Shown in pieces: positions 19,581 through 34,398 of a stretch of 64,000 nt of DNA. Source of the DNA: Asticcacaulis machinosus (GTDB lineage: Bacteria > Pseudomonadota > Alphaproteobacteria > Caulobacterales > Caulobacteraceae); assembly GCF_028550435.1 (NCBI RefSeq), contig NZ_JAQQKV010000002.1, positions 1 through 64,000 on the forward strand. The letters are read 5' to 3'. The translations under genes and the position numbers were made by a program. A model generated the notes under the pieces. It saw nothing but the letters and a program-made list of their open reading frames with translations. It did no database searches and was not told the origin of the DNA. How positions within the stretch are numbered: position 1 is the stretch's first letter; every line of letters starts with the position of its first letter.

Positions 19581-20387
19581 ATGTGGCGCGCAGCACTCAT
19601 TTCAACCGTTTTACTAGCAGCGGGCTCAGCGCAGGCTGAGACCAAACCGGAAGCGCCGATTAAGGTGCTGATCGTCACCGGCGGCTGTTGTCATAACTAT
19701 CCTGAGCAGCGTCAGATTCTGGAAACCGGCCTGAAAGCCCGCCTCAATGTCACGGTCAGCCACCTCTATTACGACCCCAAACCGGGCGAGGCGGCCACCC
19801 GCCCCAAGTTACCGATCTATGATGATCCGAACTACGGCGAGGGTTACGATGTCATTGTGCATAACGAATGCGCCGCCGATGAGAGCGATCCCGCGATTAT
19901 CGAAACTGTACTGGCCCCGCACAAAAAAGGCATAGCCGGTGTCAATCTGCACTGCGCCATGCACTCCTACCGCTCAGAGACTTTTCGTGCGCCGGTCACA
20001 GCGGGTGAGCCCGCCGCACGCTGGTTTGAATATACCGGCATCCAGTCATCCGGCCACGGCCCGCAGTCGCCGATTACCCTGACGATCGCACCAGAGGCCC
20101 ATCCGATCACTGAGGGTTTAAGCGGTTGGACCACCACCAAGGATGAGCTTTACAACAACCTGACCACCTTCAAGGTCACGCCACTGATCTATGGCATCCA
20201 GCCGGAATCGTCTGTGGCCGCCGACCGCGACAAGACCTTCACCGTGGCGTGGACGCACACCTATGGCCCGCAAAATGCGCGGGTATTTTCCACGACGCTG
20301 GCCCACAATGAGGCCAATATGCGCGAAGACGCCTATCTTGATCTGGTCGCAGGCGGCGTCGCCTGGGCCAGCGGTCGGTTGAAATAA
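19581..20387 (+). CDS. secreted ThuA-like protein
   Basis: 268-residue protein of the ThuA (trehalose utilisation) family with a glutamine-amidotransferase-like fold. A signal peptide (ALISTVLLAAGSAQA) is followed by VLIVTGGCCHNYPEQRQILE, YDVIVHNECAADE, GVNLHCAMHSYR and AWTHTYGPQNARVFSTTLAHN, all typical of ThuA-like exported proteins. The biochemical function is unsettled; a role in sugar metabolism is inferred from family context and from the GH3 gene across the repeat block downstream. CGGAGGA precedes the start. Confidence 0.82.
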   Translation: MWRAALISTVLLAAGSAQAETKPEAPIKVLIVTGGCCHNYPEQRQILETGLKARLNVTVSHLYYDPKPGEAATRPKLPIYDDPNYGEGYDVIVHNECAADESDPAIIETVLAPHKKGIAGVNLHCAMHSYRSETFRAPVTAGEPAARWFEYTGIQSSGHGPQSPITLTIAPEAHPITEGLSGWTTTKDELYNNLTTFKVTPLIYGIQPESSVAADRDKTFTVAWTHTYGPQNARVFSTTLAHNEANMREDAYLDLVAGGVAWASGRLK

Positions 20388-20544: not shown

Positions 20545-23151
20545 TTACGGGCAGTTGCCATCGCCTTCGACCGCCATAAGCTTGATGGTCGTATAGGTCA
20601 GGTCGAGCGCCTTTTCCGAAGATATCGCAAACGGCACGCCGATCTGCTTCATATCGGCACCGGCATCGCGGAAACAGCCCAGCTTGATCTTCAGCGTCTT
20701 GAACTGACCACCCGTCGGGGCCAGCGCCTTCGACACATCGACACGGCCCATGATGAACGGATCGCGACCAACACCGATGGTCACCGGGCCTTCGGCGGCC
20801 TTATCCATCTTATAGGTGATCGACAGGGCCAGTTCACCGGTCGTCTGACGGCTAAGGTCAACCAGCGGCCCCTGGAACAGCGCGGCCCCAAGGCCCTGAC
20901 CATTGAACACCAGACGGCGGCCGGCTTCCTGAGCCCCGGCATCGACGATGGTCTGGCTGGCGATCCCCTTCGGGCTCTTGACATTGCCATCGCCTTCGGC
21001 GGCTCCACTCAGATCAGCCAGATAGAACTTCCACGGCGCGCGCGCACGACCGGCGGTGAAGTAGTTATCGACATTGACCACATCGGCATCGCTCAGGCCC
21101 GACACTTCGGGCAGTTGCGCCAGATCGCCCTTATCGGCATAGGTCAGGCCAAAGCCATAGGCAAACAGCGGATCATAGCCGGTCATGCCGACATTGAGCG
21201 GCTGCTGCACGGCGGTTTTCGGCCACGAGAATGAAAGCTTGCCCTTAAAGTCGTGACGCGCCTTACCCGCCGCATCCCCGATGATCAGGTCGGCGATCCC
21301 GCCGCCTTCGGTACCCGGCAGCCATGCGGCCACAAAGGCGTTCGAGGCGTTGAGTTCCGGGTTCACCCACATCGGACGGCCCGACAGGAAGACGGTCACC
21401 ACCGGAATACCGGCCTTTTGCAGCTTTTTGATCAGCTCCAGATCCTTGGGCTCACCGGGCTGGTAATCAAGGTTCGGGCGGTCGCCCTGAAACTCGGCAT
21501 AGGGGTCTTCGCCGATGACGACAATGGCCACATCCGGCTTTTTACCCTTGAAGGATCCATCAACGCTCAGGGTCGCCTTGCCACCCGCCGCGGTCGCCGC
21601 CTCCTTGATGCCGCCAAAGATCGACTGGCCATGCGGGAAATCGGCATTGGTGTTGCCGGTGCCCTGCCACGAAATGGTCCAGCCGCCGGATTGTTTCCCG
21701 ATATCATCAGCCCCGTTACCGGCGACAAGGATATTGGCCTTGCCCTTAATGGGCAGCAGAGAGCCATTGTTTTTCAGCAGAACCAGCGATTCACGCACCG
21801 CCTGACGGGCCACGGCGCGGTGTTCCGGACGGCTCAGGTTTTCCCATTTGCCGGTGATGGCGCGATCTTTCGGCGCGCCAAACTCAAACAGGCCGCCCTT
21901 GATCTTGGCGCGCAAAATACGGCGCACGGCGTCATCCAGACGGGCCTGTGAAATCTCGCCCGATTTAGCTTGAGCGAGCGTGTTCTCATAGATGCCCTTC
22001 CACGAATCAGGGGCCATGAACATGTCGATACCGGCGTTGAACGCCTGCGGACACGACAGGTTGGTGCAGCCCGGCACCTGACCTTGCGCGTTCCAGTCCG
22101 ACACTACAAAACCGTCAAAGCCCATCCGGCCTTTCAGCACGTCAGTCAGCAGATATTTGTTGCCGGTCAGCTTCTCACCGTTCCAGCTTGAGAACGACGC
22201 CATGACCGACAACACACCGGCTTCGATCGACGGCGGATAACCGGCATTGTGGATATTGGCCAGTTCTTCCTCACTGATCACGGCATCGCCCTGATCCTTG
22301 CCGCCTAAGGTGCCGCCATCGCCCAGATAGTGCTTGGCCGACGACATGATGCGCCCCAGCTTAATGCCCTCATCGCCACCCTTATCGCCTTGCAGGCCCT
22401 CAACGACCTTTCCGGCATAGGCGGCGACATCGGCCGGATTTTCAGAATAGGATTCGTAAGCACGGCCCCAGCGCTTATCGCGGGATACGGCAACCGTCGG
22501 CGCAAAGGTCCAGTCGACCCCGGCCAGCGCCATTTCATAGGCGGTGACTTCGGCGATCTTTTTCATCAGGTCAGGATTGCGGGTCGCGCCCAAACCGACA
22601 TTGTGCGGGAAGATGATCGCGCCGACCAGATTGGAGTGACCATGAACCGCGTCAATCCCGAACAACAGCGGGATCTTGGCCTTGGACGGATATTCCAGCG
22701 ACGAACGCCAGTAGGCGTCGGCCAGATCGAGCCATTCCTGCGGCGTGGCGCGCTCATTGCCATTTGGCGATGACGACCCGCCTGCCAGAATGGAGCCGAG
22801 CGGATAGGTTTTCAGGTCGGCAGGCTTGATTGAAGCGATATCGGCCTGAACAGTTTGACCGACTTTTTCCTCAATCGTCATCTGCGCCATCAGGGCGTCG
22901 ATTTTAGCTTCGACATCGGCATCAACCAGACCGGCATCCTTAAGCTCCGGCCAGACCGGATTGACAGGGGCAAACGCCGGAGCCTGCGGCACAGGGGCGG
23001 CCGGCACCGCAGGAACCGGAGCCGCATCCGTATCCGCGCCGCTAAAGGTCGCGCAGGCGCTTAAGCCCGTAACGCCCAGCGCCAGCGCTGCGGCCGAACT
23101 CATCTTAAGCCATGCCTTGAACGGCGACGATTTGGTATGTGCAGATTTCAT
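20545..23151 (-). CDS. GH3 beta-glucosidase/glucan glucohydrolase, lipoprotein
   Basis: 868-residue exported glycosidase. Lipobox LSAC with lipidated Cys33 follows a basic, hydrophobic signal. Residues about 70-430 form the GH3 barrel: PLLFGIDAVHGHSN, AKHYLGDGGT, and GFVVSDW with nucleophile Asp near 352. The second alpha/beta domain follows (LLKNNGSLLPIKG, IVVIGEDPYAEF). The last 180 residues are a beta-sandwich like that of ExoP-type 1,3/1,4-beta-glucanases. It releases glucose from beta-glucans at the cell surface. A palindrome matching the LacI-type operator of the sugar genes lies at 23374, upstream of its start. Confidence 0.93.
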   Translation of the reverse strand: MKSAHTKSSPFKAWLKMSSAAALALGVTGLSACATFSGADTDAAPVPAVPAAPVPQAPAFAPVNPVWPELKDAGLVDADVEAKIDALMAQMTIEEKVGQTVQADIASIKPADLKTYPLGSILAGGSSSPNGNERATPQEWLDLADAYWRSSLEYPSKAKIPLLFGIDAVHGHSNLVGAIIFPHNVGLGATRNPDLMKKIAEVTAYEMALAGVDWTFAPTVAVSRDKRWGRAYESYSENPADVAAYAGKVVEGLQGDKGGDEGIKLGRIMSSAKHYLGDGGTLGGKDQGDAVISEEELANIHNAGYPPSIEAGVLSVMASFSSWNGEKLTGNKYLLTDVLKGRMGFDGFVVSDWNAQGQVPGCTNLSCPQAFNAGIDMFMAPDSWKGIYENTLAQAKSGEISQARLDDAVRRILRAKIKGGLFEFGAPKDRAITGKWENLSRPEHRAVARQAVRESLVLLKNNGSLLPIKGKANILVAGNGADDIGKQSGGWTISWQGTGNTNADFPHGQSIFGGIKEAATAAGGKATLSVDGSFKGKKPDVAIVVIGEDPYAEFQGDRPNLDYQPGEPKDLELIKKLQKAGIPVVTVFLSGRPMWVNPELNASNAFVAAWLPGTEGGGIADLIIGDAAGKARHDFKGKLSFSWPKTAVQQPLNVGMTGYDPLFAYGFGLTYADKGDLAQLPEVSGLSDADVVNVDNYFTAGRARAPWKFYLADLSGAAEGDGNVKSPKGIASQTIVDAGAQEAGRRLVFNGQGLGAALFQGPLVDLSRQTTGELALSITYKMDKAAEGPVTIGVGRDPFIMGRVDVSKALAPTGGQFKTLKIKLGCFRDAGADMKQIGVPFAISSEKALDLTYTTIKLMAVEGDGNCP

Positions 23152-23373
23152 CTCAGCTTCCCATCTTGGCCCGATACCTGTGATCCATACGGTAATACGG
23201 GTGTTTTTATATGTCTGTCTTATTCGGCAAGGGAACTGTCGAAAAGCGTCACACTAAATTTTTGACAACCCTGCCAAAAATTCAGCCATCATGACGACCC
23301 AAAAGCGTCAATACCCCTGCACTGGCAAACCTTGGGATAAGTCGGATATACCCCCGGCTCTTTGCCCCTTTAA

Positions 23374-23387
23374 TGACAGCGCTATCA
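23374..23387. promoter_or_regulatory. LacI-type operator (one mismatch) upstream of the GH3 gene
   Basis: TGACAGCGCTATCA differs at one base from the perfect palindrome TGACAGCGCTGTCA at 31151. It lies 223 bp before the GH3 start and 171 bp from the next operator, so looping between the two is possible. Confidence 0.6.
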
Positions 23388-23557
23388 ACTCACGTCAAGG
23401 CTTGATCCGTTCGCATTCGCAAAACAATGGTTTAGAAGCGTGAAACTCCACCAGATCGTTTATCTATACTTTTCATGTGGTTAATAGTTTTAAGCTCACC
23501 AAGAGCAGAGACATCATCCGCGTAATTTCGCTTTTTTATCAAATTTTCAAAAATCCG

Positions 23558-23590
23558 TTTGACAGCGCTGTCAAAAAGACATACTTATAA
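23558..23590 (+). promoter_or_regulatory. LacI-type operator overlapping a plus-strand promoter
   Basis: TTTGACAGCGCTGTCAAA (23558-23575) is a perfect 18-bp palindrome containing a consensus TTGACA -35 box at 23559. A TACTTATAAG region at 23582-23591 gives a possible -10. A repressor bound here would block a rightward transcript, but no gene starts to the right before the terminator at 23753. Confidence 0.65.
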
Positions 23591-23783
23591 GATCCGTTGT
23601 TGCCGTGTGCATTCTGGCCGTCGGGTCGATTGCATAATCTGAGTTTAAAGCCGGACTTTGGTGGAGGTCTTTCCCTTTTTCACCTTCATCGTCTGGGTTC
23701 GGTTTTAAATACCTTCTGGAATTTGGCATTTTCGAAGGTAATGGCCTTTAGATCCCGGTGACTTTTGTCACCGGGACTTTTTT
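23591..23783 (+). ncRNA. candidate operator-controlled small RNA of about 190 nt
   Basis: The stretch has a promoter with LacI-type operator on its left, a strong terminator on its right and no plausible protein gene inside; the flanking GH3 and lacI genes are both on the minus strand. Possible RNA structure: a pyrimidine-rich single strand at about 23667-23690 (TTTCCCTTTTTCACCTTC), a stem TACCTTC/GAAGGTA around 23711-23741, then the terminator hairpin. The CCTTTTTC part is complementary to GAAAAAGG at the eda ribosome-binding site. A 15-codon GTG frame (23661-23708) lacks a ribosome-binding site. Existence is inferred, not shown. Confidence 0.5.
23753..23783 (+). terminator. intrinsic terminator with no upstream protein gene
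   Basis: Perfect 10-bp stem TCCCGGTGAC/GTCACCGGGA with a TTTT loop, followed by CTTTTTTT on the plus strand. On the minus strand there is no T-run after the stem, so it serves rightward transcription. The nearest plus-strand gene upstream ends at 20387. Confidence 0.9.
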
Positions 23784-23794
23784 GGCTTTATTTT

Positions 23795-23857
23795 TAGTCC
23801 CTCGCCGGGCGGTGGCTCCGCCACCTTGGCCGCCGCCGCAATGGCGGCCTGAGCGAA
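23795..23857 (+). repeat. second interspersed repeat family, copy 1
   Basis: Starts TAGTCCCTCGCCGGGC, then hairpin GGTGGC-TCC-GCCACC and hairpin GGCCGCC-(GCCGCAAT)-GGCGGCC. It is followed by a GAGCGAA/TTCGCTC palindrome (23851-23870). An almost identical copy follows at 23881 and an exact inverted copy of the core is at 39541. Confidence 0.8.
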
Positions 23858-23880
23858 TATTCGTTCGCTCTACTATTTTT

Positions 23881-23943
23881 TAGTCCCTCGCCGGGCGGTG
23901 GCTCCGCCACCTTGGCCGCGCCGCGGGTGGCGGCCTGAGCGAA
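23881..23943 (+). repeat. second interspersed repeat family, copy 2
   Basis: Direct repeat of the preceding unit. The first 37 bases are identical; the second hairpin differs in its loop (GGCCGC-(GCCGCGGGTG)-GCGGCC) but still pairs. It lies just past the lacI stop and may end lacI transcripts. Confidence 0.8.
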
Positions 23944-23961
23944 ATTAATCAGCCCTTAGCT

Positions 23962-25038
23962 TCAGATAGCCCTGACCGAATTGCGTTTGATCAGCTCAAA
24001 TGGCAGCAAGCGGTCGGTATCGCGTTTTTCGCCATCCTCGCCCTCATCCCTGGCCAGCAGCACTTCGGCGGCGGCATAGGCGATATCTTCGACCGGCTGG
24101 CGGATCGTGGTCACATGCGGCCAGATCAGGATCGAGCCTGGCGCGTCGTCAAATCCACAGATCGAGACATCTTCGGGGATGCGGATGCCCATCTGCTGGG
24201 CGACGCCCATAATACCAAAGGCCATATAGTCGTTGCTGGAAAAGATCGCGGTTGGACGCGACTTACCTGCCTCAAAGAACGCTTTGCCCGCGTCGACGCC
24301 GGATTCGTAAGAGAAAAAGCCCTGCTTGACCCAATCGGGACGCGGCGTAATCCCTGCCTCGCTCAGAGCCTTGGTGAAGCCCTGATAACGCAGATGCGCA
24401 CCGCCATGTTCCGGATGCCCCAGCACAAAACCGATATCACGGTGGCCCATCTCGATCAGGTGTTGCGTCATCTCATAGGCGGCGCGGGCCTCATCCATGC
24501 GCACGGTCGGCGACCGCCCCGGATTGAGGAAGGGGGAAATCCGCACATAGGGCACACCCGCCGCCTCTACCGCGTGCAGCACCACCGCCATATCACACAA
24601 AGGCGGCGTCAGGATCACGCCATCCAGACGAATAGTCGCCAGAAGACCGGCAATATTGCGTTCAAGATCGGGCGAATGGGCATCCTGAGGCTCGATCAGA
24701 AGGTGATAGCCGTTTTCACGACAGCGGCGGATGACACCGTTCTGCACCGAATTGATATAGCTGGGGTTGGGGTTATCGTAGAAAATCCCGATCAGAAAAC
24801 TGCGCGCGCCTGCCAATGACCGTGCCAGAAGATTGGGCCGGTAATGCAGCAGATTGGCAGCTTCCTGAACCTTGGTGCGGGTCTCGGCCCGGACATTGGG
24901 TTCGTTATTCATGACACGGGAGACGGTCTTGATCGACACGCCGGCCAGACGGGCCACATCATTGATGGTCGACACAGTGCCGCTCGCCGGTAAATTAACA
25001 CCGGCCTTAAGCTCCCCAGAAGCCTTGATATCCACCAA
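23962..25038 (-). CDS. LacI-family transcriptional regulator of central sugar metabolism
   Basis: 358-residue repressor. A 23-residue N-terminal extension precedes the helix-turn-helix TINDVARLAGVSIKTVSRVM and the hinge HYRPNLLARSLAG. The rest is a periplasmic-binding-like effector domain with GDIGFVLGHPEH-type and FSSNDYMAFGIM segments and FDDAPGS near the end. It lies directly downstream of the Entner-Doudoroff operon on the same strand. The shared palindrome TGACAGCGCTGTCA before itself, zwf, the candidate sRNA and the GH3 gene makes it the natural candidate regulator; the effector is likely a sugar phosphate or glucose derivative, which is inference. Confidence 0.9.
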   Translation of the reverse strand: MVDIKASGELKAGVNLPASGTVSTINDVARLAGVSIKTVSRVMNNEPNVRAETRTKVQEAANLLHYRPNLLARSLAGARSFLIGIFYDNPNPSYINSVQNGVIRRCRENGYHLLIEPQDAHSPDLERNIAGLLATIRLDGVILTPPLCDMAVVLHAVEAAGVPYVRISPFLNPGRSPTVRMDEARAAYEMTQHLIEMGHRDIGFVLGHPEHGGAHLRYQGFTKALSEAGITPRPDWVKQGFFSYESGVDAGKAFFEAGKSRPTAIFSSNDYMAFGIMGVAQQMGIRIPEDVSICGFDDAPGSILIWPHVTTIRQPVEDIAYAAAEVLLARDEGEDGEKRDTDRLLPFELIKRNSVRAI

Positions 25039-25104: not shown

Positions 25105-25196
25105 ATTATACGATTTTAGGACTTCAAATTGTCTTAAGCGCACAATTTGTCAATCAGCGATCGGGAATTGTCCGCTTTTTTTGACAGCGCTGGCAA
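25105..25196 (-). promoter_or_regulatory. lacI promoter region with LacI-type operator
   Basis: TTGACAGCGCTGGCAA (25181-25196) is the operator palindrome with one mismatch, in the gap between eda and lacI. On the minus strand a TATAAT box lies at 25110-25105, about 67 bp before the lacI start. This arrangement suggests autoregulation of the repressor. Confidence 0.6.
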
Positions 25197-25237: not shown

Positions 25238-25882
25238 TCAGGCTTTCGAAAATGTCGCCACGGCCTCTGCCGTAAGACGCGTGATCTCGGCCCAGTTGCC
25301 GTCCTGCATGGCCTTGGCCGGTGCGACCCACGACCCGCCCACGCACAGGACGTTATCCAGCGCCAGGAAATCGGCGGCATTTTTCACATCAATCCCGCCG
25401 GTCGGGCAGAACTTGACCTGAGGCAGCGGCCCGCCAATGCCTTTCAGCATCGGAATGCCACCCGCCGGCACGGCGGGGAAGAATTTCAGATGGGTGAAGT
25501 TCCACTCCAGCGCCTGCATGACTTCGGATGCGGTTTGAACCCCCGGCAACAGTGGCAAACTGTCCTGCTTGGCCAGTTCCTTGGTAAGCCCCGGAGAGAC
25601 GAGGAATTTGGCCCCGGCCTTGGCGGCCTTTTCAGCGTCATGGGGCGTCAGCACCGTACCGGCACCAACAATGGCGTCGGGGCGTTCTTTGGCAATGAGC
25701 TTAATGGCATCCAGCGCGCAATCGGTGCGCAGGGTAATCTCCAGCACCGTGATCCCGCCCGCAATCAGGGCATCGGCCAACGGCAGGGCCTGATCGAGGC
25801 TGGGGATGACCATGACCGGCAGAACCGGCCCTGTGGTCATGAATGTCGGGACATCGGGGTGCGTACCGGGATATTTGCTCAT
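25238..25882 (-). CDS. eda: 2-keto-3-deoxy-6-phosphogluconate aldolase
   Basis: 214-residue class I aldolase that splits KDPG into pyruvate and glyceraldehyde-3-phosphate, the last Entner-Doudoroff step. Motifs: VLPVMVIPSLDQALPLADAL, GGITVLEITLRT with the catalytic Glu, VGAGTVLTP, FLVSPGLT, HLKFFPAVPAGGIPML with the Schiff-base Lys, and FCPTGGID. The start MSKYPGTH is chosen because AAGGAAA lies 7 bases upstream; a TTG eight codons earlier has none. Last gene of the zwf-pgl-edd-glk-eda run, 57 bp after glk. Confidence 0.96.
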   Translation of the reverse strand: MSKYPGTHPDVPTFMTTGPVLPVMVIPSLDQALPLADALIAGGITVLEITLRTDCALDAIKLIAKERPDAIVGAGTVLTPHDAEKAAKAGAKFLVSPGLTKELAKQDSLPLLPGVQTASEVMQALEWNFTHLKFFPAVPAGGIPMLKGIGGPLPQVKFCPTGGIDVKNAADFLALDNVLCVGGSWVAPAKAMQDGNWAEITRLTAEAVATFSKA

Positions 25883-25939
25883 CGGGAGATTTCCTTTTTC
25901 GTTCAAACGCGCCGCTTATACGGCTTCTTATAGGCCTAT

Positions 25940-26968
25940 TCAGCCCGTGATCTCGGCGTCCGTCAAGGCATGGGCCGAACCCAGCAAAGCCGCGCACGGG
26001 TGAGTGATGATGTGACTGGGGATTGCGGCCACCAGATCGGCCAGAGGCGCCTTGGCTTCCATACGCGCCCGGAAGCGGCCTTCGTCGATAAACCGGAGCA
26101 GACGCGGCGCAATGCCACCGGCGATAAACATACCCGCCGTCGCCCCGTGACAGAGCGCCAGATCACCACACACCGAAGCTAAGATATCGAGGAAGGTTTC
26201 GACCGTATAACGGCAGCCCTGCCCATCAGGCCCCTCAATATTGGTGATCTGTGCCGGGGTCAGCTCCAGCGCTTTTTCACCGCGCACAAAGGATACGGCC
26301 TGATACAGATTGACCAGACCGGGGCCCGACAGCAGGTTCTCGATCGTCACCCGCCCGAGTTTTTTGCGCAAAAAGCGATGAATGTCGGCTTCAAAATCAT
26401 TAACCGGCGCCCACGACGCATGGCCACTCTCGGTCGACAGGCAATAGGGCCCGTAAGCCCCGCCGACCAGAACCGACGCCCCAAAGCCGGTCCCAGCCCC
26501 CATGACCGCATGGACATCGCCAAACCCCTTGGTCACCGGCCCCAGCGTCTTGATATCATCACCATCCATATAGGGCAGCGCATAGGCCAGAGCCGCATAA
26601 TCATTGATCAGGCGCGATTTCCTGGCCCCTGACGATTTAGCCAGTTCAGCTTCCGTCACCAGCCAGTCAAGGTTGGTGAACTTGATCTGACCGTTCTTGA
26701 CCGGCCCTGCGACCGCCAGCACGGCATAGTCAAGCTCAGGCCGGCCACCCTCACTTCCGGCCAGATCACGGAAATAGTCCGCGATAACGGCATAGATATT
26801 AGGATAGCCGTGCGTCTCGAACGACTTGAAATTAAGCAGCTTCGTCTTGCCGTGATCGCGCTCAGCAATGGCAAAACGCGCATTGGTGCCGCCGATATCA
26901 CCGACTAAACCACGAAAGGTAATGGACGCCGCAGACGACGTTGTGGGGGACTCAAAATGGGCTGTCAT
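25940..26968 (-). CDS. glk: glucokinase
   Basis: 342-residue ATP-dependent kinase converting glucose to glucose-6-phosphate, the feed step for the operon. It belongs to the non-ROK glucokinase family: LVGDIGGTNARFAIAE at the N-terminus (phosphate-binding loop), LAVAGPVKNGQIKFTNLDW, LINDYAALAYALPY with catalytic Asp, GAGTGFGASVL, and STESGHASWAP. It starts 6 bp after the edd stop, so coupling is likely. It has a slightly extended Ser/Thr-rich N-terminus. Confidence 0.95.
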   Translation of the reverse strand: MTAHFESPTTSSAASITFRGLVGDIGGTNARFAIAERDHGKTKLLNFKSFETHGYPNIYAVIADYFRDLAGSEGGRPELDYAVLAVAGPVKNGQIKFTNLDWLVTEAELAKSSGARKSRLINDYAALAYALPYMDGDDIKTLGPVTKGFGDVHAVMGAGTGFGASVLVGGAYGPYCLSTESGHASWAPVNDFEADIHRFLRKKLGRVTIENLLSGPGLVNLYQAVSFVRGEKALELTPAQITNIEGPDGQGCRYTVETFLDILASVCGDLALCHGATAGMFIAGGIAPRLLRFIDEGRFRARMEAKAPLADLVAAIPSHIITHPCAALLGSAHALTDAEITG

Positions 26969-26974
26969 CTAACC

Positions 26975-28786
26975 TTACCAGAAGACCGCGCCGCCCTCAT
27001 CCGCAGCGCCTACGACGCGCCGGAACGGGGCGAACAGCTCGCGTCCGAGACCATCAACTTCGGTCTCTTTCACAGCCGGTTCGCGGGCCAAGAATGACGC
27101 TTCATTACCTATGAAGCTTAAGGTCCCATTTTCACAATCTACCCGCAACACATCCCCTGACCGTAGTTTTGAGATCGGTCCGCCATCCTTGGCTTCTGGA
27201 GTGAGATGAATCGCTGAGGCTACCTTACCCGATGCACCCGACATCCGTCCATCGCTAACCAGCGCGACCTTACGGCCCTGATCCAGCAAGCTTGACAAAG
27301 ATGGCGTAAGCGAATGCAACTCAGGCATACCATTGGCCTTTGGCCCCTGGAATCTGACGACGCAAATAAAATCCCCATCGGGGATGTTACCGGCCTTAAA
27401 AGCCGCCAGGAAATCATCCTGATCGTCGAAAACCGCGCACGGGCCTTCGATAAACTGATGCTCCGGCTTGACGGCGGAAATCTTGGAAACGGCAATACCG
27501 AGATTGCCCTTCATTTCGCGCAGGCCCCCTTCCGGGCTGAACGGATTGGAGACGGGGCGCAGCACAGCCTCATCGCCCGACGCCTGCGGCAGATCGCGCC
27601 AGATCAGCGCCCCGTCCTGAAGGAACGGCTCTTTGGCATAGGCCGACAGGCCGTGGCCCCAGATGGTGTCAACATCTTCGTGCAGCAAACCGACACTCAG
27701 CAATTCACGGATCACAAAGCCAATCCCGCCCGCGGCATGGAAGTGGTTGGTATCAGCCGAGCCGTTCGGATAGACCCGCGCCAGCAGCGGCACGATGCGT
27801 GAAATGTCGTTCAGATCTTCGGGCGTCAGGATGATGCCCGCTGCGCGCGCCATAGCCGGCAAATGCAGGGCGTGGTTGGTCGACCCGCCGGTGGCCATCA
27901 GGCCGACAACGCCGTTTACAAAGGCTTTGACGGTGAGCACATCGCCCAGACAGGCCGGTTGCTTGCCGTTCGCGGCGGTCAGGGCGGCGCGTTCGACTGC
28001 GGCGGCGGTCAGGGCCTCACGCAGTTCCGTGTGCGGATGGATAAAGGCCGAGCCCGGCACATGCAGGCCCATCATTTCCATCAGCATCTGATTGGAATTG
28101 GCAGTGCCATAAAAGGTGCAGGTGCCAACCCCGTGGTAAGATGCCATTTCGGCGGCCAGCAGCGCATCGCGGCCCACTTCGCCTCTGGCATACTGGGTGC
28201 GCACCTTGGCTTTTTCAGGATTGGGCAAGCCCGACGACATCGGCCCTGCGGGCACAAAAATCACCGGAAGATGGGCAAACGACAGGGCACCGATGACCAG
28301 ACCCGGCACGATCTTATCGCAAATGCCCAGCATCAGGGCGGCATCAAAAGCATCGTGGCTGAGGGCAATGGCGGCTGACATAGCAATCACATCGCGCGAA
28401 AACAGCGATAGTTCCATACCGCCTCGGCCTTGGGTGACACCATCGCACATGGCGGGCACGCCACCGGCGACCTGCGACGTGGCCCCGACCTTACGGGCCG
28501 CTTTCAGGATCTTTTCGGGGTAGTTGTGATAGGGCTGATGGGCCGACAGCATGTCATTATAGGCGGTGACCACGCCAATATTGGGCACGGTATCGAGTGC
28601 TGCCTGAAGCTTATCATTTTCCGATGACGCCGCCACGACGTGGGCATAGTTGGCGCAACTCAGCTTTTTGCGGCGCGGCTCGGCTGTCTTATAGCGCTCA
28701 GTGCGCGCCTCGAACCTGGCGCGCAAATCCTTTGAGCGATCAGCGATACGTTGGGTGATGGCGTCAAGCGCGGGATTGAGGGTCAT
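26975..28786 (-). CDS. edd: 6-phosphogluconate dehydratase
   Basis: 603-residue [4Fe-4S] enzyme that dehydrates 6-phosphogluconate to KDPG, the defining Entner-Doudoroff step. IlvD/Edd family signatures: GVVTAYNDMLSAHQPY, GVPAMCDGVTQGRGGMELSL with a cluster Cys, LMLGICDKIVPGLVIGAL with another Cys, GTCTFYGTANSNQMLMEMMG with the third, and VSDGRMSGASGKVASAIH. Full length. It lies between pgl (12 bp upstream) and glk (6 bp downstream), all on the minus strand. Confidence 0.97.
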   Translation of the reverse strand: MTLNPALDAITQRIADRSKDLRARFEARTERYKTAEPRRKKLSCANYAHVVAASSENDKLQAALDTVPNIGVVTAYNDMLSAHQPYHNYPEKILKAARKVGATSQVAGGVPAMCDGVTQGRGGMELSLFSRDVIAMSAAIALSHDAFDAALMLGICDKIVPGLVIGALSFAHLPVIFVPAGPMSSGLPNPEKAKVRTQYARGEVGRDALLAAEMASYHGVGTCTFYGTANSNQMLMEMMGLHVPGSAFIHPHTELREALTAAAVERAALTAANGKQPACLGDVLTVKAFVNGVVGLMATGGSTNHALHLPAMARAAGIILTPEDLNDISRIVPLLARVYPNGSADTNHFHAAGGIGFVIRELLSVGLLHEDVDTIWGHGLSAYAKEPFLQDGALIWRDLPQASGDEAVLRPVSNPFSPEGGLREMKGNLGIAVSKISAVKPEHQFIEGPCAVFDDQDDFLAAFKAGNIPDGDFICVVRFQGPKANGMPELHSLTPSLSSLLDQGRKVALVSDGRMSGASGKVASAIHLTPEAKDGGPISKLRSGDVLRVDCENGTLSFIGNEASFLAREPAVKETEVDGLGRELFAPFRRVVGAADEGGAVFW

Positions 28787-28798
28787 ATTAAATACTCA

Positions 28799-29563
28799 CT
28801 ACGCCGCCCAGACCACTTCGACCGGCACAGGCGACTGCGCGATGAAAGTACCGATGGGGGATGTATAGGGATCGTCGGATAAAATTGCGCTGCGTAAAAC
28901 CTCAAGCTTTTCAGTGCCGGTAATCAGCAGCAGGATGCGTTTTGAGCGGTTAAGCGCGGGCACGGTCAGGGTGATGCGCGGCAGTTTGGGCTCAACATCT
29001 GAGCCTGACGGGGCGACCGGCAGAACCAAAGCCGTCGTGTCATAAACCTCGGCATTAATCGCATGGCCCGGAAAGATCGAGGCGTAATGCGCATCCGCCC
29101 CCATACCGAGCAGGGTCAGGTCAAAGATCGGTTTGTCGTCCGCAACCTCAATCCCTTCAATAGAGCGAATTGCTGCCTCAGCCTTTTTGGCGCACGCGCC
29201 CGCATCATCCAGATCCTGAATCAGCGTCACGAAATTCAGGCCCGACTCTATCGCGGGTCTCAGCGCTGTCGCCATCATCAGGGTGTTGGATGAAGCATTA
29301 TCGAGCGGCACAAAGCGCTCATCGACCTGAGTGATCGTGATGTTTGGCCAGTCGAGATTAAGCCCGCTCAAACCCTCATAGACGGCCTTGGGTGTCGATC
29401 CACCAGCACCTGTGATCAGGGCATGGCCTTTGGACGCGACTTCGGATTTCAGTACGCCTGCGACTTGCGCAATCACATAGGCGACCGCATCGGCCACCGC
29501 ATCAAACGCGTGCACCGTCACCGGGCCTTTGAGGCCCTCAAGCATCAGGGTGTGTTCAGTCAT
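28799..29563 (-). CDS. pgl: 6-phosphogluconolactonase
   Basis: 254-residue hydrolase of 6-phosphogluconolactone. DevB/Pgl family motifs: GHALITGAGGSTPKAVYEGL, ITQVDERFVPLDNASSN, and LLGMGADAHYASIFPG (normally GxGxDGHxAS; here DG is DA). The ATG at 29563 lies inside the last codons of zwf, an 8-bp overlap that suggests translational coupling. An open frame upstream of that start is the shadow of zwf. Confidence 0.93.
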   Translation of the reverse strand: MTEHTLMLEGLKGPVTVHAFDAVADAVAYVIAQVAGVLKSEVASKGHALITGAGGSTPKAVYEGLSGLNLDWPNITITQVDERFVPLDNASSNTLMMATALRPAIESGLNFVTLIQDLDDAGACAKKAEAAIRSIEGIEVADDKPIFDLTLLGMGADAHYASIFPGHAINAEVYDTTALVLPVAPSGSDVEPKLPRITLTVPALNRSKRILLLITGTEKLEVLRSAILSDDPYTSPIGTFIAQSPVPVEVVWAA

Positions 29564-31055
29564 TCCAGCTACGCCCGTCGCGGTCGAGCAGGGTATAGGC
29601 CGACACCGGCCCGTAAGACCCCGCCGGATAGGATTGCGGCCGCGGGTAAACCTTGGCCCAGCCGTCTTCGATACCGTCAACCCACGCCCAGGCGGCTTCG
29701 ACCTCATCGCGGCGGACAAAGGCGGCGTTATTGCCATTGAGCGCATCAAGGATCAGCCGCTCATAGGCAATGCGGCGGCGCGGCGGCTTATTACCATTGG
29801 AATCGAACGCGTTGGTCAGGGACAGGGACAAAGCGAGGGGCTGCAAATCCATGCCGCCCGCCGCCGAGAGACCCGGCGCCTTATTCATCACGGTCAGCGA
29901 AATATCTTCTTCCGGCTGCAGACGGATCACCAGACGGTTGGCCAGAACGGCTCCGCCAAAGATCGAGTGCGGTACGGCCTTGAACTGCACGACAATCTCG
30001 GTGGCGCGGGTCGGCAGGTGCTTACCCGTGCGCAGGTAAAACGGCGTGCCAGCCCAGCGCCAGTTGGCGATTTCGGCCTTTAAAGCCACATAGGTTTCGG
30101 TGCCGGACGGTGAACCTTTTTCAGCCTCATAGCCCGCCACGGGCTTGCCCTCGGCAAAGCCCGGGCCATATTGACCGCGCGCGGTGTGGGTCAGGACATT
30201 GTGCTCATTGATCGGTTTCAGGCTTTTGAGGACCTTGACCTTTTCATCACGCAGGGCATCGGCATTGATACCCGACGGCGGCTCCATCGCCAGCAGACAC
30301 AAAAGCTGCAACAGGTGGTTTTGCAGCATGTCGCGCAGGGCGCCGTATTCGTCATAATAACCGAGACGCTCACCCACCCCGACGGTTTCGGCCACCGTAA
30401 TCTGAACATGATCAATGCTTTGCGCATTCCACAGCGGTTCAAACACCGTATTGGCAAAGCGCAGCGCAATCAGGTTCTGCACCGTTTCCTTGCCCAGATA
30501 GTGGTCGATGCGGAAGACCCGCGCTTCGTCAAAGGCAACCGCCACCGAGTCATTGATGACCTTGGAGGAGGCCAGATCGCGCCCCAGCGGCTTTTCGATA
30601 ATGACGCGGTTCGGCGCGACATTGAGACCGGCATTCAGCAGGTGCTCACAGATCGGCTTGAACAGCGACGGCGACACCGACAGGAAGAACACGATATCGA
30701 GATTGTCTGTCGCGCCCAGTTCGGCCTTAAGCTTCGGTCCCCATTCGGCATCCCCGACATCCAGCGACAAATGGCTGATGCGGGCGGCAAACTTATCGAT
30801 TGTCCCGTCTTCGAGATCAGCCCCGGCGCGCTTGGTCACCGCCGCCTTGACGCGTTCAACAAATTCATCGCGGCCCACCGCTTCGCGTGCCACCGACACC
30901 AGTCGCACATCATCGGCCAGAAACCCATCCTGATCGAGCATGGCCAGTGACGGCCACAGCATACGCAGCGCCAGATCGCCTGTGCCGCCCACCAGAACAA
31001 ACACACGCTGGCGCGAAGAGGTTGCTTGGGATGAAGATAATCCGTTCAAAGACAT
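29556..31055 (-). CDS. zwf: glucose-6-phosphate dehydrogenase
   Basis: 499-residue NAD(P)-linked enzyme opening the Entner-Doudoroff and pentose-phosphate routes. Motifs: FVLVGGTGDLALRMLWPSL (dinucleotide fold), VIIEKPLGRDL, RIDHYLGKETVQNLIALRF (active-site His/Lys) and TPFYLRTGKHLP. First gene of the operon. I start at MSLNGLSSSQ (31055); an in-frame start ten codons earlier lacks support. The perfect operator palindrome at 31151 lies 96 bp upstream, which implies repression by the LacI-family protein. Confidence 0.97.
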   Translation of the reverse strand: MSLNGLSSSQATSSRQRVFVLVGGTGDLALRMLWPSLAMLDQDGFLADDVRLVSVAREAVGRDEFVERVKAAVTKRAGADLEDGTIDKFAARISHLSLDVGDAEWGPKLKAELGATDNLDIVFFLSVSPSLFKPICEHLLNAGLNVAPNRVIIEKPLGRDLASSKVINDSVAVAFDEARVFRIDHYLGKETVQNLIALRFANTVFEPLWNAQSIDHVQITVAETVGVGERLGYYDEYGALRDMLQNHLLQLLCLLAMEPPSGINADALRDEKVKVLKSLKPINEHNVLTHTARGQYGPGFAEGKPVAGYEAEKGSPSGTETYVALKAEIANWRWAGTPFYLRTGKHLPTRATEIVVQFKAVPHSIFGGAVLANRLVIRLQPEEDISLTVMNKAPGLSAAGGMDLQPLALSLSLTNAFDSNGNKPPRRRIAYERLILDALNGNNAAFVRRDEVEAAWAWVDGIEDGWAKVYPRPQSYPAGSYGPVSAYTLLDRDGRSWND

Positions 31056-31150
31056 AAAGCTTATCGTTCCTGGGCCGAAAACCACGGCCCCTTCTTGAGT
31101 GAGAGCCTGCGGGTGCGGTTGATCCTGCGTGTCCTATCGACCAAAATCGA

Positions 31151-31164
31151 TGACAGCGCTGTCA
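31151..31164. promoter_or_regulatory. perfect LacI-type operator upstream of zwf
   Basis: TGACAGCGCTGTCA, a perfect 14-bp palindrome in the zwf promoter region, identical in core to 23560-23573 and one base different from 23374 and 25182. Confidence 0.75.
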
Positions 31165-31319
31165 TACAGGCTATTCCGGACAGGGTCAAGCCGCAGACTG
31201 ACCGCATCGGTGGATTATGCCGCATTCATACATCCATAAAACCAAAAACTTCGTGAACACAATTGGTTATGTTCCTAAAATTTTCTACATGACCGTCAAT
31301 TGTCCGCCAACTGACGGCC

Positions 31320-34013
31320 TCAACCTGTATTCCTGAGCGCGCTGGCCGTACCATTGACAGTCAGTTGCAGGGCCAGCTTGACCAGCTTGTGCTGATTGCC
31401 GTGACGGCGCTGGGTCATCAGTTCGACCTGCATCCGGTTGAGCGTATCGAGCACCGGCTTTGACCGCTCAATCGAGCCGCGCAGGTGTTCATGGGTCGAC
31501 AGCAGAGTCTTGGCCCCGCGGATACGCAGGATCAAGGCAATCGTATCCTCGAACTCGAACTTGATCTTATCGAAAATCCGCTGAGCCTGCGCCTTATCCT
31601 GTGCCAGATGATCGACATAGAGACCGGCAATATCCATATCGGCCTTGGCCAGCGCCATTTCCATATTGGCGAGGAACACGTCGAAGAAATCCCAGGTCTG
31701 CACCATGTCGGTAAGCACTGAATCTTCGACGCCAGTGTCCCTCACCGCCGCCGCAAAGCCATACCAGCCCGGCAGAACAAAGCGCGACTGCGACCACGAA
31801 AACACCCACGGAATGGCCCGCAGATCCTCGATCTGACCGCTGGTGGTCCGCGAGGCCGGACGCGAGCCGATTTTGAGATCCGTGATCTCCGAGATCGGCG
31901 TCACATTGCGGAAAAAGGCCAGAAAATGCTCATCCTCATAGACCAGATCGCGATAAGCCTTGAACGAGGCGTCGCAGATCTTATCCATCACCGGCCCGAA
32001 TTTGGCTTCGGCTTTCGCTTCTTTAGTATCTTTATCGACCTTGGGCTTGACCGAGGCGAGGAATACCGCCGCCGCAAAGCTGTCGAGCGTCTTGCCTGCC
32101 GTGGTGGCATTGCCGAATTTGCGGGCGATCATTTCGCCCTGCTCGGTCACCTTGATATGGCCACCGACCGTACCCGCGGGTTGCGCCAGAATGGCGTTAA
32201 ACGATGGTCCGCCACCGCGTCCGACCGATCCGCCACGACCGTGGAACAGTCGTAAAGCTACGCCGTAATGCTCACACACCGCCTTGACGGCCGAGGACGC
32301 CTTATGCAGCGACCAGCGCGAGGCCGTATAGCCGCCGTCCTTGTTGGAGTCCGAATAACCGAGCATGACTTCCTGCACCGCCGGACGCCCCAAGAGGGAG
32401 CGCATGGCGGGCAGGCCCAGCCACCGCTTCATGATATCGGGCGCGGCCTCAAGGTCACCGATGGTTTCAAACAGAGGTGCCACCTTGATCATGGTGTGCG
32501 GTTGCGGCCCGCCGTAAACGAGGCCTGCCTGTTTCAGCAGCACCAGCGGCTCAAGGATATCCGACACCGACTTACCCATCGAAATGACATAGGCGCCGAT
32601 AGCCGATGGCCCATAGGTCTTGATGACCTCGGCGGCCGCATCTATGATTTTCAATTCGCGCCGCGTTTCGGCTGAGTATTTGGCGAACGGCCAGCGCAGC
32701 AGCCGGTCATTGGTCAGTTCCGCCACCAGCGCCGACACCCGCTCATTTTCCGACAGCGACATGTAGTCGAGCAGCTCCGACGACTGCGCGAACAGTTCCG
32801 CCACCACCCGCTCATGGACAGAGGAATTCTGACGCAGATCCAGCGCCATCAGGTGGAAACCGCAACTGCGCGCAATCTGGATCGTGGCCTTGAGCGTGCG
32901 CCCGATCAGACGCTTGCCACCATTGGCGATCAGGCTGTCGCGGATGATTTTCAGGTCACGGACAAATTCATCGACCGTCTCATAAGGGGTGGCGATTTCC
33001 TGCGGCACATAGCCGGAACCCAAACCGCGCTGTTCGCCAATTATCACCTGAGCGGTCTTGGCCAGACGGGCCTTAAGGTAAGACAGGGCGCGCCGGTACG
33101 GCTCATCGACGCGGTGGACATTGGTGTCAGAAGACTTGCGCGACAGCTCCATCAGGGCGTCGGACACCTTGGTCAGTTCTTCCGAAACGGTTAGCTCGGT
33201 ATCGAGCTTATTGATCTGGTCGAAGTAGAACCGGAAAATGGTGCGGGCCTGTTCACGGAAGGCATAGCGCAGGGTGGTTTCATCGACATGGGGGTGGCCG
33301 TCGCGGTCACCACCGATCCATGAGCCCAGTTTCAGCAGCTTGGGCAGGGTCTCGTCCAGCGCGATATCACGATCCCACTGGGTATAGAGATTAACCAGCG
33401 CCGGCAGGATCGAGCGGCGCACGACCCCCAGCGAGTTTTCGATCTCATCAAAAACCGTAATGCGCTCAGGGCGGTGCAGGCGCGTGTTCCACAACAGTGC
33501 CACAGCGCGGTACAGGTCTTCTTCGATCGCGCGGCGTTCCGAGGCCGAATTGCAGGTCTCATAACGCGACAAAAGCTGGGTGATTTCATATTCGCGCTCA
33601 ACGACACTGGCGCGGCGCATTTCGGTCGGGTGGGCCGTAAACACGGGAGAGGCGTGGATGTTTTGCAGGGTCTTTTCGATCTGAGACTGATCAATGCCCT
33701 CTTTGCGGGCGGAGGCAACCGCATTGGCCAGGCTGATGGTCTGAACCGAACCATCCGAGGCCTCAAATGTATCCTCGCGGCCCAGATTGGCCACGTCTTC
33801 GGAGATGACGCTCAAAGTCGACAGACAGGTCAGGACGCGGGCGGCATGGGCGGCATCCGACTCTGAAAAACCTGACAGATCAAACGTCCCGCCTTTGAGC
33901 GTATTGAGCTTTGACAACACCTCACCGCGGCCAAAATCAGTAATAGCTTCGTTCAGAAACCCTTCCAGCATGGCGGTATTTTGTTTGACGTGGTCGATGA
34001 CGGGATCGGTCAT
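31320..34013 (-). CDS. ppc: phosphoenolpyruvate carboxylase
   Basis: 897-residue anaplerotic enzyme adding bicarbonate to PEP to form oxaloacetate. Catalytic His is in VFTAHPTEMRRASVVERE; other signatures are GSWIGGDRDGHPHV, VMLGYSDSNKDGGYTASRW, LFHGRGGSVGRGGGPS with the flexible active-site loop, and the C-terminal ILRIRGAKTLLSTHEHLRGS and RNTG end. It lies upstream of zwf on the same strand across 264 bp. I start at MTDPVIDH, with AGGGG upstream, instead of a GTG five codons earlier. Confidence 0.97.
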   Translation of the reverse strand: MTDPVIDHVKQNTAMLEGFLNEAITDFGRGEVLSKLNTLKGGTFDLSGFSESDAAHAARVLTCLSTLSVISEDVANLGREDTFEASDGSVQTISLANAVASARKEGIDQSQIEKTLQNIHASPVFTAHPTEMRRASVVEREYEITQLLSRYETCNSASERRAIEEDLYRAVALLWNTRLHRPERITVFDEIENSLGVVRRSILPALVNLYTQWDRDIALDETLPKLLKLGSWIGGDRDGHPHVDETTLRYAFREQARTIFRFYFDQINKLDTELTVSEELTKVSDALMELSRKSSDTNVHRVDEPYRRALSYLKARLAKTAQVIIGEQRGLGSGYVPQEIATPYETVDEFVRDLKIIRDSLIANGGKRLIGRTLKATIQIARSCGFHLMALDLRQNSSVHERVVAELFAQSSELLDYMSLSENERVSALVAELTNDRLLRWPFAKYSAETRRELKIIDAAAEVIKTYGPSAIGAYVISMGKSVSDILEPLVLLKQAGLVYGGPQPHTMIKVAPLFETIGDLEAAPDIMKRWLGLPAMRSLLGRPAVQEVMLGYSDSNKDGGYTASRWSLHKASSAVKAVCEHYGVALRLFHGRGGSVGRGGGPSFNAILAQPAGTVGGHIKVTEQGEMIARKFGNATTAGKTLDSFAAAVFLASVKPKVDKDTKEAKAEAKFGPVMDKICDASFKAYRDLVYEDEHFLAFFRNVTPISEITDLKIGSRPASRTTSGQIEDLRAIPWVFSWSQSRFVLPGWYGFAAAVRDTGVEDSVLTDMVQTWDFFDVFLANMEMALAKADMDIAGLYVDHLAQDKAQAQRIFDKIKFEFEDTIALILRIRGAKTLLSTHEHLRGSIERSKPVLDTLNRMQVELMTQRRHGNQHKLVKLALQLTVNGTASALRNTG

Positions 34014-34398
34014 GGTCTGCCCCTGCACAAAAAAACAGGCCCGTTAAGACATAATGCGCCGTAAGGATTGTGCCGGCGTTCTTCTTTGGGAGCGAGAACT
34101 TACAAGCGCAAAATGGCAGCAGATATGGTTATTCAGGCGGAATTTACCCTCTTCACGGTCACTATTAGCGCCAAATTTGTGCGTCGCAAGGTAACAATCG
34201 GCAACAATCCGCCAACAATCCGTGAGCTGAAAAATTTACCAAACAAACTCAATAGGTTGGAAAATATCCTATTTGAAAAAATTTTATCCTAATTTTTGCG
34301 GTAGCGCTAACATTTTTACCGCACCGGCGAACGGGTTACGATTGCAACAATTTATCCGGCAATTTCAGCGAGTTATAGTCTGACAATTGCCGGACTTA
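34014..34398. other. AT-rich upstream region of ppc with a LacI-like half-palindrome
   Basis: No gene is supported here; a plus-strand frame at 34069-34292 has no domain or ribosome-binding site. GGTAGCGCTAAC at 34300-34311 has the CG-centred form of LacI-family operators, but with half-sites different from TGACAGCGCTGTCA, so another regulator would be expected. The region also has long A/T runs that may hold the ppc promoter. Confidence 0.4.

Follow-up and report, generated by a model that had tools for sequence, protein, structure and literature searches.

Genetic organization of the locus

The analyzed DNA (hereafter the window) is a 64 000-nt stretch of the Asticcacaulis machinosus genome. 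An 18-bp perfect palindrome, TTTGACAGCGCTGTCAAA, is located at positions 23558–23575 and includes the hexamer TTGACA (23559–23564), so that a LacI-type operator overlaps a −35 box. Further downstream, a strong intrinsic terminator is present on the plus strand (23753–23783). Both features had been noted in the initial annotation of this DNA, which proposed that they belong to a small RNA gene placed under a LacI-type operator and expressed with the sugar regulon.

The flanking genes are encoded on the minus strand, as had also been stated: a GH3 glycosidase gene (20545–23151) is divergent from the RNA, while a gene for a LacI-family regulator (23962–25038) is convergent with it. The closest upstream plus-strand gene among those identified, an ORF encoding a ThuA domain, ends at 20387. 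The Entner-Doudoroff genes zwf-pgl-edd-glk-eda occupy positions 25238–31085 (minus strand). The operator said to recur before zwf, lacI and the GH3 gene is indeed found there as related copies, with two mismatches upstream of zwf (ATGACAGCGCTGTCAT, 31150–31165), one upstream of lacI (25181–25196) and two upstream of the GH3 gene (23373–23388). In total, seven operator-like sites with up to three mismatches were found in the window, compared with 0.21 expected. A second site like the copy at 23373 is also present in several relatives.

Two further features of this region were observed. A PEP carboxylase gene (31320–34028) lies past zwf and the zwf operator, and zwf has such a gene nearby in most of the fetched regions extending that far. 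The DNA between the RNA terminator and lacI (23795–23945) contains two near-identical GC-rich copies (TTTTTAGTCCCTCGCCGGGCGGTGGCTCCGCCACC...), which look like an intergenic repeat element; a similar sequence is also located beside the RNA at locus L003.

Promoter, extent and terminator of the small RNA gene

The sequence data very strongly support the presence of a genuine small RNA gene of approximately 190 nt on the plus strand (23596–23783), whose 5′ end was estimated from the promoter; a covariance model matches it at 23641–23783 (E-value 9.8e-27). A probable −10 element lies within positions 23580–23590. When the best −10 match with a spacer of 15–19 nt was scored over 23 loci, a mean of 3.7 out of 6 was obtained, compared to 2.8 in shuffled sequences (none of 500 as high). 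In this genome the element is weak (CATACT, spacer of 15 nt) and its exact hexamer is uncertain.

The terminator consists of a 10-pair stem (23753–23776) followed by a C and six T residues (23778–23783), which provide the U-rich tail of the RNA. It ranked first in a list of 32 terminator-like sites obtained from 17 kb of scanned sequence. The region 23596–23783 has a predicted folding energy of −77.3 kcal/mol, compared to −48.6 kcal/mol for shuffled sequences (z = −7.7). The RNA has, by sequence, the form of a stand-alone intergenic unit typical of trans-acting base-pairing sRNAs of the Hfq type, with the operator and −35 box at one end and a terminator stem with a U-run at the other in all 23 loci matched by the model.

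Distribution of the RNA

Searches based on DNA similarity identified the locus in 15 of 61 genomes (A. machinosus included), all of a single genus. The covariance model built from these 15 loci detected the RNA in 23 of the 25 Asticcacaulis genomes, the analyzed one among them, with E-values from 1.7e-16 to 5.6e-32; eight of the 23 matches lie outside the set used for model building. The RNA is present in single copy in each of these 23 genomes, apart from a spurious second match in G013 (28.5 bits) that corresponds to no recognizable RNA. None of the 174 sampled genomes of other Caulobacteraceae genera (199 searched, including 25 of Asticcacaulis) gave a match under stricter filters, with which weak matches are lost. 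A loose-pattern scan of genome contigs yielded two Asticcacaulis records among the matches listed.

All 23 loci have the operator, in the form TTGACAGCG[CT]TGTCA, ahead of the RNA, and the stems and the terminator are kept as well. The proposal, in the initial annotation, of an RNA gene controlled by a LacI-type operator and sharing a regulon with the Entner-Doudoroff operon agrees with the sequence data.

None of the Rfam 15 families matched the window, and three loci gave sub-threshold matches only; the RNA is a new family, absent from Rfam 15. A search of open-licence papers (titles and beginnings of abstracts) retrieved no description of this RNA, which does not in itself prove that it is unpublished.

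Conserved secondary structure and the exposed loop

The RNA contains a long covarying hairpin (23643–23709, plus strand), which presents a 15-nt pyrimidine loop, UCUUUCCCUUUUUCA (23668–23682), complementary to the ribosome-binding sites of fba and ppdK. The pyrimidine-rich segment CCTTTTTC, considered active in the initial annotation, forms part of this loop. The long hairpin is followed by a second conserved hairpin (23711–23739), with a conserved loop sequence and, downstream, the conserved AAUGGCCUUU.

In the model alignment of 23 sequences (22 distinct rows), which leans to the model, 98.6% of the structure cells are in standard pairs; controls with slid partners reached 34–54%. Changes on both sides were observed in 22 of 35 pairs. 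Within this structure, helix 3 (the second hairpin) is paired in 100% of cells and helix 4 (the terminator) in 96.2%, each with double-sided changes in 7 of 10 pairs. Alignment of the same sequences with MAFFT recovered largely the same helices, with double changes in 21 of 34 pairs.

The loop core, CUUUCCCUUUUUC, is nearly invariant while the stems vary; the exception is a single base in G009. In all 23 sequences the pyrimidine loop is predicted to be unpaired (mean unpaired probability of 0.99–1.00). The RNA gene, its operator, its structure, the exposed loop and the conserved complementarity described below can be regarded as established at the level of sequence. As a separate observation, the region 23711–23749, comprising the loop of the second hairpin (UUUGGCAUU/GUGGCAUUA) and the subsequent UGGCCUU, is kept in both sequence and pairing.

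Candidate targets

A search of the genus for the complement of the loop ahead of ATG codons gave 57 matches, compared to 16 for the reversed control, and a second pattern scan gave 99 compared to 11, an excess that is partly expected because the reversed pattern is not Shine-Dalgarno-like. The genes recurring among the matches listed for the first scan were ppdK (six genomes) and fba (three genomes), whose identities as pyruvate phosphate dikinase and class II fructose-bisphosphate aldolase, respectively, were confirmed.

Of the 24 genomes scored for fba (G004, which contributes a 3′ fragment only, was left out), 23 have a site that forms at least 9 contiguous pairs with the loop (G-U allowed), and in 22 the run is of at least 11. 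The ppdK site forms at least 9 pairs in all 25 genomes, 13 of which reach at least 11. All of these runs refer to the consensus loop, from which G009 departs by its one changed base. In A. machinosus, 13 pairs are possible at fba (UGAAAGAGGGAAA) and 10 at ppdK (−12.0 kcal/mol); the ppdK site of G020 allows 14.

Among 307 background genes, called with a simple longest-ORF script, at least 9 pairs were found in 26, at least 11 in 8 and at least 12 in 2, and in genera without the RNA (16 genomes searched) at least 9 pairs were found at none of 9 fba matches and none of 15 ppdK genes; these figures are the best over several candidate starts in 35 nt, a procedure that favours the background and the outgroups, whereas the genus was scored over 45 nt in full 15-nt windows. 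Permuted loops performed as well as the real one in 1 of 2000 cases for fba, 16 of 2000 for ppdK and 1 of 2000 for both genes together, shared ancestry being uncorrected. The energy and permutation test covered 15 of 24 fba and 14 of 25 ppdK sequences, and G017 was left out of the permutation scores. Some individual sites are less distinctive: ppdK of A. machinosus falls only within the best 6.5% of the background, while two sites of −10.8 kcal/mol, at ppdK in G015 and at fba in G020, fall only within the best 10%.

Both sites fall on Shine-Dalgarno sequences, and these are rich in purines in any case. In an alignment without the fba gene of G017, each gene has ten all-purine columns between variable flanks; five of these follow from anchoring on the purine motif, while the five upstream columns do not. 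No operator-like site (up to three mismatches) was found within 500 nt upstream of fba (0/24) or ppdK (0/25). Minimum free energy cofolding, which cannot represent kissing loops, did not form the loop-target duplex. Thirteen pairs within a 15-nt hairpin loop are sterically tight, and it is possible that 10–13 pairs are accommodated by partial pairing or by opening of the upper stem. Judged by its conservation and predicted accessibility, the loop has the features of the seed of a trans-acting base-pairing sRNA.

The target originally suggested was the ribosome-binding site of eda. The 8-base match, GAAAAAGG, is present in A. machinosus, but it is not conserved in 15 relatives: 12 of these have 4–6 pairs and the site sequence is not kept. 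The exceptions are G022 (8 pairs) and G011 (9 pairs), which match through other sequences, and G018 (11 pairs), which does so only when a start codon situated well before the probable one is taken. The other genes of the operon in the window form 3–9 pairs with the loop (9 at zwf), none beyond background. The eda target is not supported; the conserved complementary sites lie away from this locus, at the gluconeogenic genes fba and ppdK, and an RNA that turns off this opposing route is a better interpretation than one acting on Entner-Doudoroff genes. A 12-base match at kdgK, found in A. machinosus and three close relatives, was likewise rejected, since of 20 further genomes 18 form only 4–7 pairs, G013 forming 8 and G020 11; kdgK is an internal negative control. 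Among the matches listed, kduD, a GH53-like gene and mdh appeared in one to three genomes each, and these candidates were also discarded.

The neighbouring regulator and genomes lacking the RNA

An ortholog of the LacI-family regulator (65–99% identity, A. machinosus included) is present in 24 of 25 genomes of the genus. Among 15 fetched regions, the GH3 gene adjoins the RNA in 14, and in 13 of these lacI is located on the other side, in convergent orientation; the region of G017 contains no RNA. The distance between the RNA and lacI is approximately 2.4–2.6 kb in G016 and G022. G005 has an inverted Entner-Doudoroff operon between the two, with lacI approximately 10 kb away and not convergent.

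In Caulobacter, the gene for GluR, a LacI-family protein, lies immediately downstream of zwf-pgl-edd-glk and is preceded by an operator of its own; GluR, whose operator consensus spans 20 bp, is predicted to control these genes and ppdK, and glucose is proposed to cause its release from its sites (PMC4052901). The arrangement in the window is similar: the gene order is zwf-pgl-edd-glk-eda-lacI, with eda between glk and lacI, and lacI is preceded by its own operator at 25181. The regulator is a probable GluR ortholog, and both this identity and that of the inducer rest on synteny and a prediction. Since the operator covers the −35 box, repression by the neighbouring LacI protein is the simplest reading. 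The two systems differ at ppdK, which belongs to the predicted Caulobacter regulon (PMC4052901), whereas in Asticcacaulis this gene has no operator-like site within 500 nt (25/25) and carries a site complementary to the RNA. In the text of PMC4052901 on the GluR regulon no small RNA is named. When ppdK of other genera was inspected for direct GluR-like sites, only one of 15 had such a site within 600 nt (three mismatches), and so the predicted Caulobacter arrangement is unconfirmed in that sample.

Two Asticcacaulis genomes gave no match to the model. G017 retains lacI, eda, glk, edd, pgl and zwf, together with an operator at zwf; the RNA and its GH3 neighbour are absent from the contiguous 19 kb around lacI and the operon, and a search of the whole genome with the model likewise gave no RNA. 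Its fba gene is the sole one whose match is lost (5 pairs, −4.9 kcal/mol), while its ppdK site still allows 11 pairs despite the loss of the RNA. In G023 loss of the RNA cannot be scored, because the contig ends inside glk, before lacI, and the best LacI match is a 42% paralog. The fba and ppdK sites of this genome are intact.

Proposed function and alternative explanations

These observations are consistent with a trans-acting sRNA, controlled by a GluR-like LacI repressor, that would block translation of fba and ppdK while sugar is degraded; we assign this reading a probability of about three in four. The transcription of the RNA, its repression, the inducer and the direction of the effect we infer. 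Without sugar, the repressor would occupy the operator containing the −35 box and the RNA would be off. Sugar would lift the repressor, so that the Entner-Doudoroff operon and the RNA would be transcribed together. The long hairpin would keep the 15-nt pyrimidine loop open, and pairing of the loop with the purine-rich ribosome-binding sites of fba and ppdK would block ribosome entry and translation. Gluconeogenesis would in this way be shut down while glucose passes through the Entner-Doudoroff route, and the RNA would invert the sign of a simple repressor.

Since the loop matches the ribosome-binding sites of both genes, the RNA probably turns sugar synthesis off during sugar use. Where bacteria use the Entner-Doudoroff pathway for glucose degradation, the aldolase and pyruvate phosphate dikinase serve mainly gluconeogenesis; the outcome would therefore be a switch that prevents futile cycling.

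A different main function for a genuine LacI-regulated sRNA is unlikely, though it deserves consideration. The RNA might regulate alternative carbon genes broadly through their Shine-Dalgarno sequences, or serve as an RNA sponge, its matches to fba and ppdK being incidental to purine-rich sites. Such a function would suit the lineage-specific matches at kdgK (this genome and close relatives) and kduD (G001), those identified by eye at mdh (G011, G017) and the GH53-like gene (G003), and the fact that some background genes match equally well; RNA-RNA sponging through a CU-rich core has been described for CrfA and SisA of Caulobacter (PMC12559287). However, among the genes followed throughout the genus the match is kept only at fba and ppdK, kdgK being poorly matched in 18 of 20 further genomes, and the fba and ppdK matches are shorter in genera without the RNA.

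That the transcript is a leader or acts in cis, for example by antisense control of lacI from the RNA promoter, is very improbable. Although the RNA and lacI converge in 13 of the 15 fetched regions, the covarying terminator stops the RNA before lacI is reached, the distances in G016, G022 and G005 are at odds with such a role, and conservation is highest in a hairpin loop. Still less credible is a small-protein gene in place of a non-coding RNA. In some species, visual inspection of the conserved 3′ hairpin shows a short frame beginning with ATG (MWHYLEGTGL), yet the ATG is missing in several clades, the stop codon is not kept, a 2-base gap shifts the frame in the clade of A. machinosus, and conservation tracks the stems and the loop.

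Taking the sRNA acting on fba and ppdK as the preferred reading, we lean slightly towards an evolutionary scenario in which the gluconeogenic half of the GluR regulon in Asticcacaulis left direct transcriptional control, predicted in Caulobacter for ppdK, and came under a repressor-controlled, sign-inverting sRNA; the loop and the ribosome-binding sites would have been conserved together throughout the genus, and the fba site would have decayed after loss of the RNA in one species. Little is understood of how RNAs contribute to the choice of carbon source in alphaproteobacteria. With an RNA family outside Rfam 15, a likely regulator, two conserved candidate targets and a natural loss mutant, the switch could be tested in a few experiments. 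If true, it would reveal a way for a pure repressor to become able to turn genes off in response to its inducer.

Comparison with known carbon-related RNAs

Spot 42 (Spf) and similar carbon-control sRNAs of enterobacteria are tied to the use of glucose and lower the expression of genes that are unneeded on this sugar; Spot 42 is controlled by CRP-cAMP. The RNA proposed here would resemble them in its link to glucose use and in lowering glucose-dispensable genes, but it differs in its likely control by a neighbouring LacI-type repressor with an operator on the −35 box. The Spot 42 model (RF00021) scored 19.7 bits against the RNA, compared with a threshold of 80 (E-value 4.3), a match expected by chance.

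Like SisA-D (alphaR8) and CrfA of Caulobacter crescentus, the candidate is an alphaproteobacterial RNA with a probable link to carbon supply (PMC12559287). In those RNAs the core lies downstream of a weak hairpin (PMC12559287), whereas here a different core is placed in the loop of a long hairpin; the single-stranded core 10-mer of alphaR8/SisA, UUUCCUCCCU, is absent from the RNA. The genomic context is also different. In most species alphaR8/SisA is linked to an N-formylglutamate amidohydrolase gene, while the neighbours here are the GH3 gene and lacI, with a LacI operator; for sisA-D, no conserved upstream motif is reported (PMC12559287).

Other occurrences of the operator

An exact search of the genus for the operator gave 54 strand-wise matches (50 places) in 24 of 25 genomes; the reversed control gave no match. 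In G000 (C1:1296061, L322), G023 (C233, L324) and G015 (C1:1256160, L331) the operator lies ahead of a tiny transcription unit, which contains a conserved 24-residue ORF of the MEKLxExFxxALxAxGFAPGSAxN type and a second ORF of 20–24 residues; a terminator-like stem is located 3′ of the unit in L324 and L331. These ORFs possibly encode sugar-regulated small proteins. In each of G000 (C1:1778958, L323), G020 (C1:1722549, L328) and G014 (C144, L332), an exact operator copy was also found at the 3′ end of the coding sequence of a protein of approximately 490 residues (...RPEARxPRGFADKRxxQIAxERRLI...).
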